From Lichtheimia corymbifera B2541 (taxonomy: Eukaryota > Mucoromycota > Mucoromycetes > Mucorales > Lichtheimiaceae), in the NCBI GenBank assembly GCA_000697475.1, contig JNEU01001132.1, positions 1-64,000 on the forward strand: a DNA stretch of 64,000 nt, written 5' to 3'. The position numbers were made by a program, and so were the translations under genes. The notes under the pieces are model-generated. The model was not told the origin of the DNA, made no database searches, and was given only the letters and a program-made list of their open reading frames with translations. Each line of letters begins with the position of its first letter. Within the stretch, counting starts at the first letter, position 1. Positions 56,157-64,000 of the stretch are shown here, piece by piece.

Positions 56157-58878
56157 ATGTCTTCTGCATTCGACGCATTTGTCACTGTTCACCAGTATCA
56201 ACTGACCTCGATCCCCAAAGATCTATGGTTGGTAGGTTACCATTCAATCGATTCCCCAACCCTCCCCCGAGCAAATGCTTTAAAGTGCGCGTGAACGCGT
56301 TCTCATACTCCATTGCAACCACGTTTAGCCCTTGTTTATGAAACTCGGCGAGGATTATTTAGATGCTGGCAAGTATATTTATATACGATGATAATGATAG
56401 TCATTAACGCGTGGTGGTTTATGAATAGGCAATTATGTTGAGCTTCATCAAGGCGATTGTCTCGAAGGATATTCGTTGCATGTCAAAAAGGATCAGAAAT
56501 TGGAGAAGCACGGGTAAATAGAGAATACCTTGAATGATAGACAAGTAACAATCTAACAAGGATAATAGCGATATCTTTTTAGTGGATCATGCATGGACGA
56601 CGCATCCCGAGACAGCACGCAAGGAACTTTTGGAAAATCCCAATCTACTGGAACGTTTGGAAGGCATGATGAATATCGAAGCTGAGGATGAGCCTGAGCT
56701 CAGTGAGGATGAAGAGGAGCAAGTTGAACACGACGATGAGACCATCAAGGCAGTAGCAGAGCAAGCCAATGTGAGCTACCAAGAAGCCAAGGATGCTTTG
56801 GAAGCTGAAAAATATGAAGTCGTCAATGCTATTACGGTAAGCATTTATAAATGGGATGCATGATTCTGGTATTCATTCTTTTATTTAGCGCTTGACTTTG
56901 GATGAGGATTTCAAAAAAGAGTCGGAACGCTTGCAGGACCAAGTCCTTGGTCAATTGATTGGTATGTCCGTGTGTGTGTGTGCTATTGATCCAATGACAT
57001 TCTATTCATTCTGTTATAATAGCTAGTGGCAAAGCTCAAGAAAAGGAAAACAAGGTCAAGAAGGAAAAGGAGGAACGACACAAGACACGTGTGGAGGCAT
57101 GGAAAAAGGCACGAGTGGATCGCGTATGCAAGGATATGTGGTCGTATCTCCAAACCTATTCATACGCTGTGTTGCAACAAGATGGTCAACCCAAGACTCA
57201 AACAGCTTGGTACATGAACGACGAAGTTGGTTCGGCACTGGCACATTCATCAGATCCCAATGTTGTTTGTGTCCCCTTCATCTTTTCTCGTGGTGCCAGT
57301 GGTATGATCCCCTACAGCGTCATGTTCCCTATCAAGGATATCCAGCCAGGCGAAGTCATGACATGCGACCTTGTCCCTAAAAAGTTGGAACGTCCTCTGG
57401 ATCGTGCAGCGTACTTGATGGCTTTCCAACAACGTGTTTTACCAGAGCATAACATCCACCACCAAAACGATCTGGTACAAGCCTACAAGGTATATACATC
57501 GAATCGATGGCATGACATAGCATCCTACTCATTAAGTATATCTATTATTAGATGTTCCAAACTCGCCTTGATCAAAAGCATTTTAAGCCTGACGTCCAGC
57601 CTGTTGTTCAGCAGCAATCGAATGTGGAAAAGCAAGATGTCGTCAAGGTTTACAGCACCACTGAATATGTGCGCCAGTATTTGAAGCTTCCCAATGCCAA
57701 GTTTACCAACTCGGTTGATTCCGCCGATTTGATCTGGTGTAGCCAAGACTTTGATGGATATGATAAGCTCAAGCCCAACCAAATGATTAACCAATTCCGT
57801 TATGAAAGCTGTGTCACCTACAAGCAACGTCTTGCCCAACTTGTGCAGTACGGTATCGTCCATCATCCACCCTTTGTTCATTGTATATATGGATATGCTA
57901 ACAAAGAACCTTTATGCAGGGAAACATGGGGTGCTCCTCAATGGTTGCCTCGTACTTACAACATGACCACCCAATTGACCGAGTTTGTTGGTGATTACTT
58001 GGCTCATAAGGATGAGGAGAATGATTTGTGGATTACCAAACCATGGAACTTTGCACGTGGCATGGAGATTGATGTATCTGGCCAATTGCCCTTCTTGATC
58101 CGCCAGTATGACTCGCCCACACCCAAGGTGGTGCAGCAGTATATCACAAAGCCTTGCTTATACAACCACAAAAAGTTTGATTTGCGATTCATTGTCCTTG
58201 TCAAATCCGATGGTACAGTTTGCGTCTACAAGATGTTCTGGATTCGCCTCGCCAATAAGCGATTCAACTTGGGTAAGGCTAGCGTGGATAAGGATAAGGG
58301 TGTCTCCATGGATACTGATATGGTTGCTATGCACAGAGAATTTGGATGATTACGAATGCCAATTTACCGTGATGAACTATTCCAATTTCCCCATGACCCA
58401 ACTTGACTACAAGAGCTTTATTCACAACATTGAAAAGCAGCACAGTATTCAATGGAGCCCTATTCAAGAGGATATTCATAATGCTATCAAGGGTAAGCTC
58501 TCTCTCTTTGTATAGCGTGGAATTGCAGGATATTGAATGCGTGTGATTTTAGATGTTATTTCGGCTGCCATGTCAAAGAACCAACCACTTGGTCTATGTG
58601 AAGAATCAGCACCTTCTTATGGCGCATTCAGCATGTATGGTGTTGATGTGATGTTGACAGACACATACAAGCCTGTTATTTTGGAAGTCAACTTTTCGCC
58701 TGATTGTACTCGAGCTTGCCAGGTAAATATTTATTTATATGCTTCCTTGACAATGATCCTCACACACACTCTCTCTCCCCTCTAGTATGACCCTGAATTC
58801 GTCAATAATGTGTTCAAGGCTGCTGATCCTCGCTTTGGACAAGTGGCACAAGGCTTGGATGCTTTCCATGTACTATAG
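56157..58878 (+). CDS. TTLL12: TTLL12-like tubulin-tyrosine-ligase family protein with a UBA-like insert
   Basis: Exons 56157-56231, 56329-56368, 56429-56513, 56569-56836, 56889-56961, 57023-57489, 57552-57852, 57907-58272, 58337-58492, 58553-58722 and 58786-58878 give 697 residues. Keeping the in-frame 54-nt segment 57853-57906 would give 715. The N-terminal part contains DIFLVDHAWTTHPETA, as in animal TTLL12. The C-terminal ATP-grasp part has WLPRTYNM, DLWITKPWNFARGMEIDV, STPKVVQQYI-like sequence, FDLRFIVLVKSDG, NLDDYECQFTVMNY and VILEVNFSPDCTRACQ. Between them, residues about 120-160 (ETIKAVAEQANVSYQEAKDA onward) look like the UBA domain of NAC-alpha or HYPK. The intron after exon 2 is GC-AG. 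Human TTLL12 is thought to be catalytically inactive; activity here is unknown. Confidence 0.88.
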
Positions 58879-59076: not shown

Positions 59077-60421
59077 ATGGTGGAGATCAACGACGACTTT
59101 TTTCAAACAAAAGACTTTCAAGAGAAACTGGAGAGGTAGATCATGCATTGCTTGATAACACGATACTTGTGGTCGCTCACTCTATCATTCTTAAAGCATT
59201 ATTCGAAATGGAGATCCAGGGTAAATGACGTCCAAAAACAACTGCTCGAGTCGTTTGGCATTAAAAGCAAGGAAACACTTACACAACCAGATATTTAAAA
59301 GGGTGTTGACTGCATCAGTTATCCGAGGCGAGCTTGAGAAGCAACTGGTAAGTAGGTTCGATCTTTTCGTTGCACAAATGTTCATTGTGTTTTATATAGG
59401 GAATTGAAGAGCAAGCTCTTAAACCATGGAAAAAGACTGTAAACCATCATATTGACACCACTTTTGTAAGTCATCTTTATCCCATTCAAGCCATTTTACT
59501 GATGAAGATCATAGACCAAGATAATGGAAGAGGAAGAGAATCCGCCTAGCGAACCTGAAGAACCAAGCAGTCAACAGGAAGAAGATACCCAGACACCAAA
59601 GGAATCGGAGCCAAGTCATGAAGAGGAAACTAAATCAGATCAAGAAAGTGTGAGTGGTTACGCTTGTCATATTGTGATAATCTTACCGTGTTCAAACAGG
59701 ACAATGTTCAGGAAGAAGAAGAAACGAGCCAACGAGAGACACCCGTGTCATCTGCATCAGACAATGAAGCCACTCCAAGCAAGAAAAAGCCAAAAGCACC
59801 AAAGCAGCCACGCAAGAAACGTGAATCAAAAAAAGAACACAAGGTAGATTTACAAAATGGGAGAGATATGGCCGTTTTTTGACATGGAAACCATTAGACT
59901 TCTGCGACAGAAGAGTCCATCAAGCGTCTCAAGATGTACATAAACAAATGCGGTGTGCGTAAAGTATGGCAAAAGGAGCTGGCTGATTGCAAGACAATGA
60001 AGGATCAAGTCGAGAAGCTTAAAAAGATCCTTGCAGATCTTGGTGTGGAAGGTAAGCGGTCACGTGATGGAAGGGATAGAAGTTGATGCTAAACACATTG
60101 TATCAGGTCGTCCAACCCTTGAGAAATGCCAAAAGGTCAAGGCTGAGCGAGAAATCAAGGCTGAGGTGGAGAGCTTAGATACCGAGAATATCATTGAGAG
60201 TTCAAGTCGCCGAGCAACACGTTCCCAAGGTCCAAAGAGGAAGCGACGAGTGATTGAATCGGATGAGGAGGATGAGGAGGAAGGACCGGGACAAAAGGTA
60301 GCTGACTTGAACAGGGTTGAGACACAACAAAAATACTAACGGATGGATTGTGTAGCTCTCACGAACCGAGAATAATCCCCTTGATCTATCCTTCTTGGGC
60401 GATCAGTCAGATAGCGATTAA
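59077..60421 (+). CDS. HIRIP3: HIRIP3-like histone chaperone
   Basis: Nine exons, 59077-59135, 59197-59220, 59272-59347, 59400-59465, 59515-59649, 59700-59843, 59898-60051, 60107-60297 and 60356-60421, give 304 residues. The C-terminal core LKMYINKCGVRKVWQKEL, LKKILADLGVEGRPTLEKC and EVESLDTENIIESSSRR matches HIRIP3, a histone H2A/H2B binding protein. A Glu-rich stretch, a Lys-rich stretch and an acidic segment flank it. The N-terminal exons encode a DEK_C-like helical motif (VLTASVIRGELEKQLGIEEQ). The join of exons 2 and 3 was chosen to keep this motif in frame, and that first region is the least certain part. The gene converges with the coiled-coil gene, 217 bp between stops. Confidence 0.8.
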
Positions 60422-60638: not shown

Positions 60639-63600
60639 TTAAATGTCAATCACTTCGCTTAAACATCCACTGCAACGTGGGATATCTAAAAACTCAAAGA
60701 ATTCCGGCTTTTGACGTGGAGGCAATTTTCCAAGGGCAGGCACCCGTCGATGTTCCTCTTGTGCTGGTTCTTCTTGATGTTGTCCTTCTTCTTCTCCTTC
60801 ACTCTCGCTTCGAGTCCAATCAAAGCCATTTTCACTGACAGGGCTCAATCCATTCATCATCAACTTGACTTGAGCATTGTCCAGTGCAGCTCTTCCATTT
60901 TCCATCGTCTCTTCGTTTTGCTCTCTTACGGCTTGTTGATCATTCCACATCCGATCTAAGTGTGCCTTGTACTCGGCATGTAATCGTTGAAGTGTCGTTT
61001 CCAACTCTCGTTTCTCACGCTCAAGTCGGGTCTCGGACTCGAATTGCCTGTCTCGAACTGTTGTCAATTCACGGCGAATGGTGTCAAAGGCTTCCAATTG
61101 CCGATCCAGCCGGCTCTGAAGCTCTTGAAGCTGTGCCTCTTTCTCATCGTATTGCGTTTGCAGTTGTTTTGCTTTGTCAATGGCTTCGTCACGCTGTTGA
61201 ACGAGGGATCCATCATCCACATGCTGCTTTTGCTCTTCAAGCTGTTGTTTTAAGCGCTCCACTTGCTCCTGTTGCTGTTGCCTGCTAGTCTCAGCCTGCT
61301 CCATTTCACTTTGTAATTGGGTGATTTGTTGCTCACGCTGCTGCAGCTTCATTTGAACTTGCCGAAGTTCATGAGATAGCTTTTGGTTGTCTCTACTGTA
61401 CGTTTCTCGAAGGGATGTCTCGCGTGCGGTGGAATTCTCCTCTGCAAGTTGATGTGCCTCCTTCACCTTTTCACGTTCCTGGTCGAGGGATGCGTGTAGC
61501 TCAGTGATCTTAGCGTGCAGTTGCTCCATATCACGATTCGATTCTTGCTTAGCAGCATCGTGTTCATCTATAACCAAAAATTAGCTAACCAAAAGAGAGA
61601 TATTGACTCATGACTTACCTTGCAATGCTTTCAACTTTTCATGGTGCGCTTGCATAGCCTTTTCATGTTCTTGCTGTGCCTTAGAAAGAGCGTCTGCATG
61701 CTCATCTAAATACACAAAAAGCATGTTAGCAGCCGTATAGATGCACGCGAGTCGTTTTTTGCAATCACCTTTTAAAGCGTTGGCCTTTTCAATATGTTCA
61801 GCGATTGTCTTTTCATGCTCTTGTATTAACTTTTTCAATTCCGCATCATGATCGGCTAAGAAACCATGTTAATATACACGGATTCGTTATACAACCATCT
61901 ATCAATGCTCACCTTGTAGCGACTCAATCTTTGCATTATGCTCAACTTGGATATCCTCATTCTGTTGCTGGGTCTTTTCAAGGGCAATCTTATGTTCAGC
62001 TATGACATAAACGGTTAATACAATCCGCGTGTGATGCTTCAACCAACACCCCAACGCTTACCTTGTAGGTTCTCCAATTCCTGCATATATTGCTTCTGCT
62101 CTTGTTCTCGGGTATTTACAAGCTCTAGCACCTTGATGAGTTGCTTTCTATCATTGTCACTAATGCACATATTTACCTTCCAATGATTTGATTTTCTCGA
62201 GATGTTCGGCAGTGACTTTTTCATGTTGCTCACGTTCTTGCTTCAGCATACGTTCATATTCAGCTACGATGGTATATAATGAGATAATGTCTTTTGGTTT
62301 CGCACGCTGGTACAGCATACCTTCAAGTGATTCGATTTGTTGCTTGTGCTCCATGATTGCCTTTTGACTCTGCTCTCGTTCTTCTTGCAGTATTTTCTCA
62401 TGCTCAGCTATAAAAGAGGGTTTAACCGAGAGCAATACACACATCACTGTCGCCCGTACCTTTTAATGCAGCAAGATTATCTTCTTGGCTCTTCAACTCG
62501 CCGTGTGACTTTTTACGTTCCTCTTCCAAAATCAATGCATGTTCATCTATCCAAAGCAAACAAAGCATCAGTACCACGGGTAAATATCCTTATGTGTTGA
62601 TTCCCACCTTGCAGAGCCTTGATCTTTTGGTCATGATCTTCTAGCACCTTTTGTCTTTGTTCACGTTCGGAAGCGAGTTTGGAATCGTATTCACCTATAC
62701 CCCGATAAGTTAATCATCCCATATTGGATATCAAAGCCATACTTACTATGCAGATCACTTATTTTCTGGTTATGCTCCTCGATTGTCTTTTGATTGAGCT
62801 GACGTTCATTAGCGAGTGCGGACTCATGATCACCTTTGACACATGTATCAATACAAGCTCATATCCAATGGCATCCATATCGTACCTAATAGCGTCTTGA
62901 TCTTCTCGTCATGCTCATTGGAAGCTTTTTCAATCAGGCCACGTTGTTCTTCAAGCTCCTTTTCATGTTTGGCTACAGTAACATGTCAGTTTATGCAGTA
63001 GGTATGCCATCACAGTAAAAGGTACCTTCAAGCGCCTTGACTTCTTCCTCATGCTTTTTGATCGCCTCTTCCTTCTTCGCCTGTTCTTCAGCGAGTGCTG
63101 TCTTATGAGCAGCTATTGAACGGCTGTTAGATGCTAGGACAATAAAGTCTCGAAATAAGCTACGCACCTTGCAATGATTCCAACTTTTCATTGTATTCCT
63201 GGAAGGTCTTTTCGCGGTCTTGACGTTCTTTTGCTAGCAAGGCATCGTATTCCTCTACAAGAAAAGGCCATGTAAGACACCAGAATGAACCACCAGTGGG
63301 ATAGTCTAATAATACCTTTCATTGTTTGCTCCTTTTGCTGGAAATCTAGAGTCGCTTGATTGGCTTGTTCTCGCTCTTTGGCCAAGGCTGCTTCATAGTT
63401 ATCTAGAGCGAGATTGTAAGTTTTAGCATATACCATTTTGCAATTCTCTACGGGCCTCCTTACTCACCTTGCAAATCTTTCATCTTGAGCTCATATGCTT
63501 CAATCGACTTTTGACTCTGCTCCTGCTCCTTTGCCATTGCTGCCTGGTGATCGTCTATATCATATTGAAGAGTGTGAGTCGGCTATCCATTTCTCCATGT

Positions 63601-64000
63601 TTATACTTTACCTTGGAGCGATTTTAGCTTGTCCTCATATTGCTGCAATTGATGTTGATGTTCTTCTTGCTTCTTTTCAAGCATCGTTTTGTACTTTTCT
63701 AAATCATCGTATAAGCAACTTTCCAATCGATGTCATCCATTCCCTTCCTTACCATCCTCGGATTTGATCTTTTCTATAAAGCAAATTAATTACATATCAA
63801 AACAATGTATGTCATGCAAATGCACTACCTTGAAGAGCTTCTGTTTCTTTCGTATGTTGCTCAATGACTTGCTGCTTCTTGTTCTCGACCTCTTCAAGCG
63901 CTGACTCGTGCTCGGCTATTACTCTAGTCAATCAGCGGTCCTTTCAACGAGCGTCTTTTTGTTACCTTTGATGGTTTCTAGTCTTGCTGCAAACTCTTTT
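60639..64000 (-). CDS. Long coiled-coil protein, 3' part, with a one-exon-per-repeat array
   Basis: The gene runs off the right edge, so its start and N-terminal domains are unknown. The terminal exon 60639-61567 encodes about 309 residues, mostly Glu/Gln/Arg-rich coiled coil, with an acidic segment (SESEGEEEGQ) and a short end containing PRCSGCLSEVIDI. Upstream lie fifteen intact 87-nt exons with low ends at 61619, 61769, 61913, 62177, 62321, 62460, 62608, 62747, 62886, 63026, 63168, 63316, 63468, 63612 and 63829. There is also a 21-nt exon at 63753-63773, a damaged 86-nt exon at 62062-62147 and a partial exon from 63966. Each cassette is 29 residues, for example EHEKILQEEREQSQKAIMEH followed by KQQIESLE. 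A CLIP-type microtubule linker is possible, but no CAP-Gly domain is in the window. Confidence 0.85.
62062..62147 (-). pseudogene. Damaged cassette exon (86 nt)
   Basis: The exon keeps a normal donor (gtaagcg) and a tag acceptor at the expected place. It is one base short of 87 nt, so splicing it in gives a frameshift and a stop within about eight codons. The intron separating it from the preceding exon is only 29 nt (62148-62176), shorter than all other introns here. The frame offset by one base still reads KQLIKVLELVNTREQEQKQY, so the loss is recent. Skipping this exon joins its neighbours in frame. Confidence 0.7.
63753..63773 (-). other. 21-nt mini-exon of the cassette array
   Basis: The exon encodes Glu-Lys-Ile-Lys-Ser-Glu-Asp, one heptad, in the same 1-1 phase as the full cassettes, with normal gtaagg donor and tatag acceptor. 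It resembles the last seven residues of a full cassette (EKIKSLE), so it is probably an internally deleted copy. Confidence 0.7.

Follow-up and report, generated by a model that had tools for sequence, protein, structure and literature searches.

A golgin-like gene of Lichtheimia corymbifera with a coiled-coil rod written largely as one 29-residue unit per symmetric exon

Background

In titin, the PEVK region carries one small repeat per exon, and the length of the spring region is varied by exon skipping. To our knowledge, the evolution of golgin rod length and sequence is not well understood. PMC5840792 reports GM130 and golgin-45 only in Holozoa, and PMC6660245 describes the binding of a Golgin-45 peptide to GRASP55, with GRASP55 His18 and Cys103 partnering two Golgin-45 cysteines in a zinc-finger-like site. 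A fungal precedent is provided by Aspergillus, where binding of the Bug1 tail to Grh1 is based, according to PMC10275640, on an AlphaFold2 model with genetic support.

Here we describe a locus of L. corymbifera B2541 that, on the sequence evidence given below, is probably a genuine gene whose spliced product is a GRASP-binding golgin, with ends conserved in other Mucorales and a 28-exon rod derived mainly from tandem duplication of exon plus intron. The predicted protein resembles GM130 (GOLGA2) and, as far as the latter has been described, its counterpart in fungi, Bug1, in having a GM130 N-terminal motif, a predicted long coiled-coil rod and a putative PDZ-type tail with an upstream hydrophobic stretch, the last as in the model of Aspergillus Bug1-Grh1. 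It differs from both in that its tail is of the Golgin-45 kind with a CxxC, its rod consists mostly of one 29-residue unit per exon, and no Pfam family scored over the cut-off in the pieces scanned (residues 1-235, 821-986, 987-1295 and short end pieces). It shares with Golgin-45 the CxxC followed by seven residues and a hydrophobic end, the His/Cys partners being kept in GRASP; however, it is 1295 residues long with a GM130-like start, whereas Golgin-45 ends near residue 403 (judging from the Cys393/Cys396 numbering in PMC6660245). For the array, the closest likeness is titin PEVK, a tandem repeat region with exon duplication and loss (PMC6469411), although PEVK is an elastic spring region and the array described here a coiled coil. 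No comparable exon-coded coiled-coil rod was found in the open literature by exact-word searches of titles and the beginnings of abstracts (PMC2447309, on the troponin T gene, was among the papers listed), and a search of open papers for golgin together with Mucorales, also by exact words, yielded no paper.

A predicted gene of 32 exons

The window, i.e. the whole stretch of DNA analysed, comprised 64,000 nucleotides (contig C398, positions 1-64000) of a genome of 35 Mb in 432 contigs. With its 225,198 bases the contig extends past the window, and the analysis took in two further stretches from outside it. Exon borders were obtained by automatic gene finding followed by curation by eye, and the result is a predicted gene model. 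The automatic model was replaced, as it contained two fused exon pairs, doubtful GC donors and small introns.

In the curated model the gene occupies the minus strand of C398, with its ATG at 66275 and its stop at 60639, and removal of 31 introns leaves a single open frame of 1295 residues. All 31 introns end in AG and have GT donors, except for introns 1 and 6 with GC donors (C398 66159-66215 and 65015-65069, beyond the window); the other 29 are GT-AG. Introns 15-31 are 51-65 nt long, and the array introns 50-72 nt. Two introns, 26 (62264-62320, 57 nt) and 30 (61706-61768, 63 nt), are open in frame; if retained, they would contribute 19 and 21 further residues, respectively. The features of the model, in window positions unless stated otherwise, are as follows.

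C398 60639-66275, minus strand: golgin-like gene, whole (32 exons, 1295 residues, eye-curated model); window part 60639..64000
60639..61567, minus strand: exon 32, the last exon, with a unit-like stretch at its start and the conserved tail, kept in orthologues, at its end
60642..60674, minus strand: Golgin-45-like tail, CxxC followed by the seven last residues (stop codon at 60639-60641)
61619..61705, minus strand: cassette exon 31, 87 nt, gene model
61769..61855, minus strand: cassette exon 30, 87 nt, gene model
61913..61999, minus strand: cassette exon 29, 87 nt, gene model
62062..62124, minus strand: short exon 28, 63 nt, phase 1-1, gene model
62177..62263, minus strand: cassette exon 27, 87 nt, gene model
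62321..62407, minus strand: cassette exon 26, 87 nt, gene model
62460..62546, minus strand: cassette exon 25, 87 nt, gene model
62608..62694, minus strand: cassette exon 24, 87 nt, gene model
62747..62833, minus strand: cassette exon 23, 87 nt, gene model
62886..62972, minus strand: cassette exon 22, 87 nt, gene model
63026..63112, minus strand: cassette exon 21, 87 nt, gene model
63168..63254, minus strand: cassette exon 20, 87 nt, gene model
63316..63402, minus strand: cassette exon 19, 87 nt, gene model
63468..63554, minus strand: cassette exon 18, 87 nt, gene model
63612..63698, minus strand: cassette exon 17, 87 nt, gene model
63753..63773, minus strand: microexon 16, 21 nt, seven residues, gene model; resembles the last seven residues of the unit by eye
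63829..63915, minus strand: cassette exon 15, 87 nt, gene model
63966..64000, minus strand: window part of exon 14 (78 nt, C398 63966-64043); exons 1-13 lie beyond the window

Exons 4-31 constitute 28 consecutive exons of phase 1-1 (nineteen of 87 nt, four of 78 nt, two of 63 nt and one each of 66, 75 and 21 nt), and since all 28 are symmetric, skipping of any cassette leaves the reading frame intact. Eleven of them are exons 4-14 (four of 87 nt, four of 78 nt and one each of 75, 66 and 63 nt), with exon 14 spanning the window edge. Seventeen whole exons, all in phase 1-1, lie on the minus strand within 61619-64000: fifteen of 87 nt, one of 63 nt and one of 21 nt. An earlier note on this DNA had read fifteen 87-nt exons of identical phase in this interval; its count was exact, with the 21- and 63-nt exons and the 11 upstream exons falling outside its claim. 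The gene architecture, a coiled-coil rod written largely as one unit per symmetric exon, is unusual.

The 29-residue unit and the register of the rod

The 19 full-length units share a mean of 29% amino acid identity, compared to 10.4% for shuffled units and no more than 15.8% for rotated registers, in agreement with the claim that each 87-nt exon encodes one diverged, homologous copy of a helical unit, with equal length and phase. At the DNA level, identity between the 87-nt exons averages 49% with a maximum of 64%. Broken down by codon positions 1, 2 and 3, identity between units is 44, 68 and 36%, a pattern that points to constrained coding sequence. The chance that the array is an assembly or gene-finding artefact is, in our judgement, negligible: the model was curated by eye rather than from cDNA, but its 87-nt exons have diverged too far to be explained by collapsed or expanded reads, the 32 exons give one open frame, and the codon positions show constraint.

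The most regular positions of the unit are Leu 28 (17 of 19 units), Leu 7 (16/19) and Lys 24 (14/19), followed by His or Tyr at position 3 (18/19) and position 21 (16/19) and Ile or Leu at position 25 (13/19). When units were rotated against each other the best match, at 15.8%, was obtained at 11 residues, and the unit is read on this ground as 18+11. Across exons 7-31 (682 residues) the hydrophobic period has its maximum at 3.63, where the power is 34.2, against 23.6 at 29/8, 3.2 at 11/3 and just 0.2 at 3.5; in the rod parts encoded by exon 3 and exon 32 the maxima lie at 3.55 and 3.59, respectively. A core period of 3.63 (approximately 29/8), together with an 18+11 unit, means that the border between two full units keeps register. 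The note had suggested that each cassette boundary should shift the register or use hendecads; the 18+11 reading at about 29/8 answers this question, and a shift is not borne out at borders between full units.

A coiled coil whose period lies close to the value for a free alpha helix is expected to supercoil little, and the array rod, with 3.63 residues, would accordingly be only slightly supercoiled. Judged by its periodicity, the protein appears to have a long coiled-coil rod, as golgins of the GM130/Bug1 type do. The 751-residue array would measure ~ 111 nm if it formed a continuous helix.

Odd-length exons

Nine array exons deviate from 87 nt. Of these, a profile of the 87-nt unit clearly matched exon 13 (14.9 bits), with weak matches for exon 14 (3.3 bits) and exon 10 (2.4 bits) and a score of 0.5 bits for exon 28, while exons 4, 5, 6, 9 and 16 scored below zero bits or were unmatched (five of nine). 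Membership of odd-length exons in the array is assigned by phase, border position and likeness by eye. They may be trimmed copies of the unit, a reading which we infer and no more, as the profile matches only exon 13 clearly. Lengths of 26, 25, 22, 21 and 7 residues shift the 3.625-residue seam by 62, -37, 25, -74 and -25 degrees, respectively, and none of these shifts places the seam on the far side of the helix. The 21-nt microexon (window 63753-63773), which has an 87-nt cassette on either side, codes for precisely seven residues.

Orthologues share the ends and not the rod

Nine orthologues (P0001-P0009) were collected, all through tail searches; those with a name are from Absidia, Hesseltinella, Cunninghamella, Mucor and Phycomyces, all of the Mucorales, and one is a JGI metagenome protein. 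A search with the conserved tail gave six proteins of 1181-1351 residues (6 of 120 candidates), and an array-less query three proteins of 367-447 residues (3 of 315 candidates). In BLAST comparisons with low-complexity masking, alignment is confined in all nine to the last 160-179 residues, with identities of 43-51%. An N-terminal motif is common to P0001-P0005 (five of nine). P0006-P0009 are without it and may be truncated predictions, which makes the absence of cassettes from these four weak evidence.

As recorded, none of the nine orthologues has the 29-residue unit: the unit profile reached 344 bits on this protein and 2.0 bits on the best stretch of any orthologue. The strongest self-match of the six long orthologues lies at a lag that is a multiple of 7 in every case (at 60, 11 and 7 in the three short ones), and their core period is 3.495-3.54; in contrast, self-matches of this protein peak at lags of 29, 87 and 58. 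Sharing of the ends and not of the rod suggests that the ends have been kept while the rod, heptad-like in the orthologues and built on the 29-residue unit here, is different in kind.

Residues 560-990 were also compared to the protein collection and gave no match at E ≤ 1e-10 among the 7996 candidates sharing most words with them (712-2266 residues), a result that limits, rather than excludes, array-bearing relatives, especially badly predicted ones. In the search for paralogues, all seven matches listed at E ≤ 10 for a 145-residue query of five cassettes were at this locus, and exon 32 matched, besides itself, only three places at E values of 0.16-0.84. A scan of prokaryote contigs produced 23 pattern matches, none of which was confirmed. 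One hit in the viral collection (L018) was dropped, since its frame continues past the tail and no GRASP-type end was present in the 40 codons read. The collection lists PF24161 for P0001 and P0003; a rescan of these two proteins found no Pfam family at E ≤ 0.001. Pfam matches on coiled-coil pieces of the protein described here were disregarded, all being under the cut-off.

The two ends and their candidate partners

The earlier note had proposed looking upstream of the window for an N-terminal part. This part was found, and it points to a golgin with a GM130-like start. The GM130-type motif R..KL.AA.KKL..(F/Y)Q is present, albeit as a short match of 21 residues. A profile of the N-terminus, built from this protein and P0001-P0005 (six of the ten sequences), had two matches in PDB up to E = 10, both of them to GM130 peptide (E = 0.002). 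We consider the N-terminus to be a predicted basic helix of GM130 type.

At the other end, the tail alignment (eight of ten sequences, leaving out P0003 and P0006, which are close to the others) shows CxxC plus seven residues with a hydrophobic last residue, and the Golgin-45 peptide of PDB 5h3j ends likewise in CxxC plus seven residues. With anchoring at the C-terminus, a single shuffle in 20,000 equalled the score of the Golgin-45 tail, and not one in 20,000 equalled the score of the last 11 residues of Golgin-45. A single-sequence query with the tail retrieved nothing from PDB up to E = 10, and a tail profile retrieved two mannanases (E = 0.83 and 1.3) and not the Golgin-45 peptide. By its spacing and shuffle scores, the tail is a putative Golgin-45-type tail, and the protein looks like a golgin to judge by its ends.

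Candidate partners are encoded in the same genome. A GRASP gene at G000:C167:163452-163841 was the sole convincing one of three matches on two contigs. With exons joined by eye, its product aligns to GRASP55 (PDB 3rle) at E = 2.6e-65, with a histidine and a cysteine retained where GRASP55 has His18 and Cys103, positions being counted on the alignment to 4kfw. A hit to the GRASP family on the second contig, C412, was rejected as a GRASP; by eye it looks like a single-PDZ proteasome chaperone. The Uso1/p115 head domain is present on C392. In the mechanism that we propose, the C-terminal tail would clip, through a shared zinc site, to the PDZ domains of the GRASP protein encoded in this genome, the N-terminal basic helix would engage Uso1/p115, and the array rod would most likely serve as a tether, whose reach would be set by the ~ 111 nm rod (under the same continuous-helix assumption).

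A different account of the ends is convergence, a basic helix and a PDZ ligand having arisen independently in an unrelated coiled-coil protein of Mucorales. Both matches are short, at 21 residues each, neither tail search retrieved Golgin-45, and PMC5840792 reports homologues of GM130 and golgin-45 from Holozoa only. On the other hand, GM130 peptides were the sole PDB matches of the N-terminal profile, the tail match has exactly the same spacing and scores better than shuffles, and the partner residues are retained in the organism's GRASP; we therefore regard convergence as rather unlikely, while giving it some weight.

The likeness of a fungal protein family to GM130 at the start and to Golgin-45 at the tail, by matches that are short but statistically supported, goes beyond what PMC5840792 reports, and the joining of the two on one fungal protein is the more surprising by-product of this analysis. 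It is conceivable, and we offer it tentatively at somewhat less than even chances, that Mucorales keep an undivided golgin, one chain whose start is GM130-like and whose zinc-clipped GRASP tail is Golgin-45-like, and that a single GRASP ligand of opisthokonts was the ancestor of both golgins of animals or the material from which they were pieced together. The rod would then have been free to be rebuilt; in this lineage 28 cassettes of exon plus intron would have made of it a helix bundle with a 3.63-residue period and almost no supercoil, its length changing mostly in steps of 4.3 nm.

Origin of the array

The rod array most likely grew, in the main, through successive tandem duplications of an exon and the intron beside it. 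Full-length unit borders fall at one unit position throughout. Unit-like stretches in register flank the array, one where exon 3 ends (1 of 370 null positions was as good) and one where exon 32 begins (score -11.5 compared to -11.9 for the best of 466 non-array offsets; 0/466, by a small margin). Adjacent 87-nt exons are 52.5% identical in DNA, compared to 49.3% in permuted order (p = 0.006); among the five separations tested, separation 3 also gave an excess (p = 0.018), and separations 2, 4 and 5 gave none in the order permutation. Common borders, flanking unit-like stretches and likeness of neighbours all fit tandem duplication of the exon with its intron.

The intron sequences themselves are nearly saturated and do not decide the origin of the array. 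Similarity between introns averages 4.63 compared to 4.41 (sd 0.09) for shuffles, a difference of which shared branch-point signals could explain part; the order test for adjacent introns gave p = 0.058, and separations 2 to 5 were without excess. It is also conceivable that the 29-residue repeats first arose within a long exon and that introns were inserted later at the same spot in each, for instance by intron-creating elements preferring CAAG. CAAG, a site recurring in the units, ends 15 of the 29 exons from exon 3 to exon 31, and the introns show almost no mutual similarity, both of which would suit this scheme. However, it requires approximately 29 insertions at one homologous codon position, and exons 4-31 contain neither an undivided double unit nor an off-site intron; the greater likeness of neighbouring exons is compatible with either order of events. 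We consider later intron insertion improbable and retain tandem duplication of exon plus intron as the preferred reading.

With 64% DNA identity in the best 87-nt pair, growth among the 87-nt units was not recent, which speaks against a rapidly changing array and is compatible with an old one. No relative with an intermediate array was found among the nine orthologues or in the comparison of residues 560-990 to the protein collection.

Cassette skipping and rod length

The earlier note had described the cassettes as interchangeable modules whose gain, loss or skipping changes rod length. The part of this that stands is that skipping of a single cassette keeps the frame; present-day exchange or skipping gains no support from exons whose closest 87-nt pair has diverged to 64% identity. 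Following the titin spring region as a model, the array might be a regulated length device, with cassettes skipped to make rods of varied length. All 28 exons are symmetric, so that any skip would be in frame, and introns 26 and 30, if kept in the transcript, would leave the frame open throughout. Retention would nevertheless introduce an in-frame stop in 22 of 29 introns and a frameshift in five of 29. The splice sites of introns of 50-72 nt are usually paired across the intron, and introns of this length thus favour recognition across the intron and make skipping the less likely outcome. Overall, a regulated length device seems to us quite improbable.

Over evolutionary change in the genome, each 87-nt cassette would add ~ 4.3 nm without breaking the frame or the phase of the helix. 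Fixed ends joined by an exon-coded 29-residue rod might in this way offer a genomic route to changes of tether length that stay in frame and in helix phase.

Neighbouring genes

Two gene pieces were recognised on the plus strand of the window beside the golgin-like gene. Positions 58041-58346 belong to a gene of the tubulin-tyrosine ligase family, of which they carry a piece (PF03133, E = 1.6e-17). Positions 59898-60297, where one intron was read across by eye, carry a gene piece that weakly resembles the CHZ histone chaperone domain, at a score under the cut-off (E = 0.0016), and this CHZ-like gene piece lies, by eye, tail to tail with the golgin-like gene.
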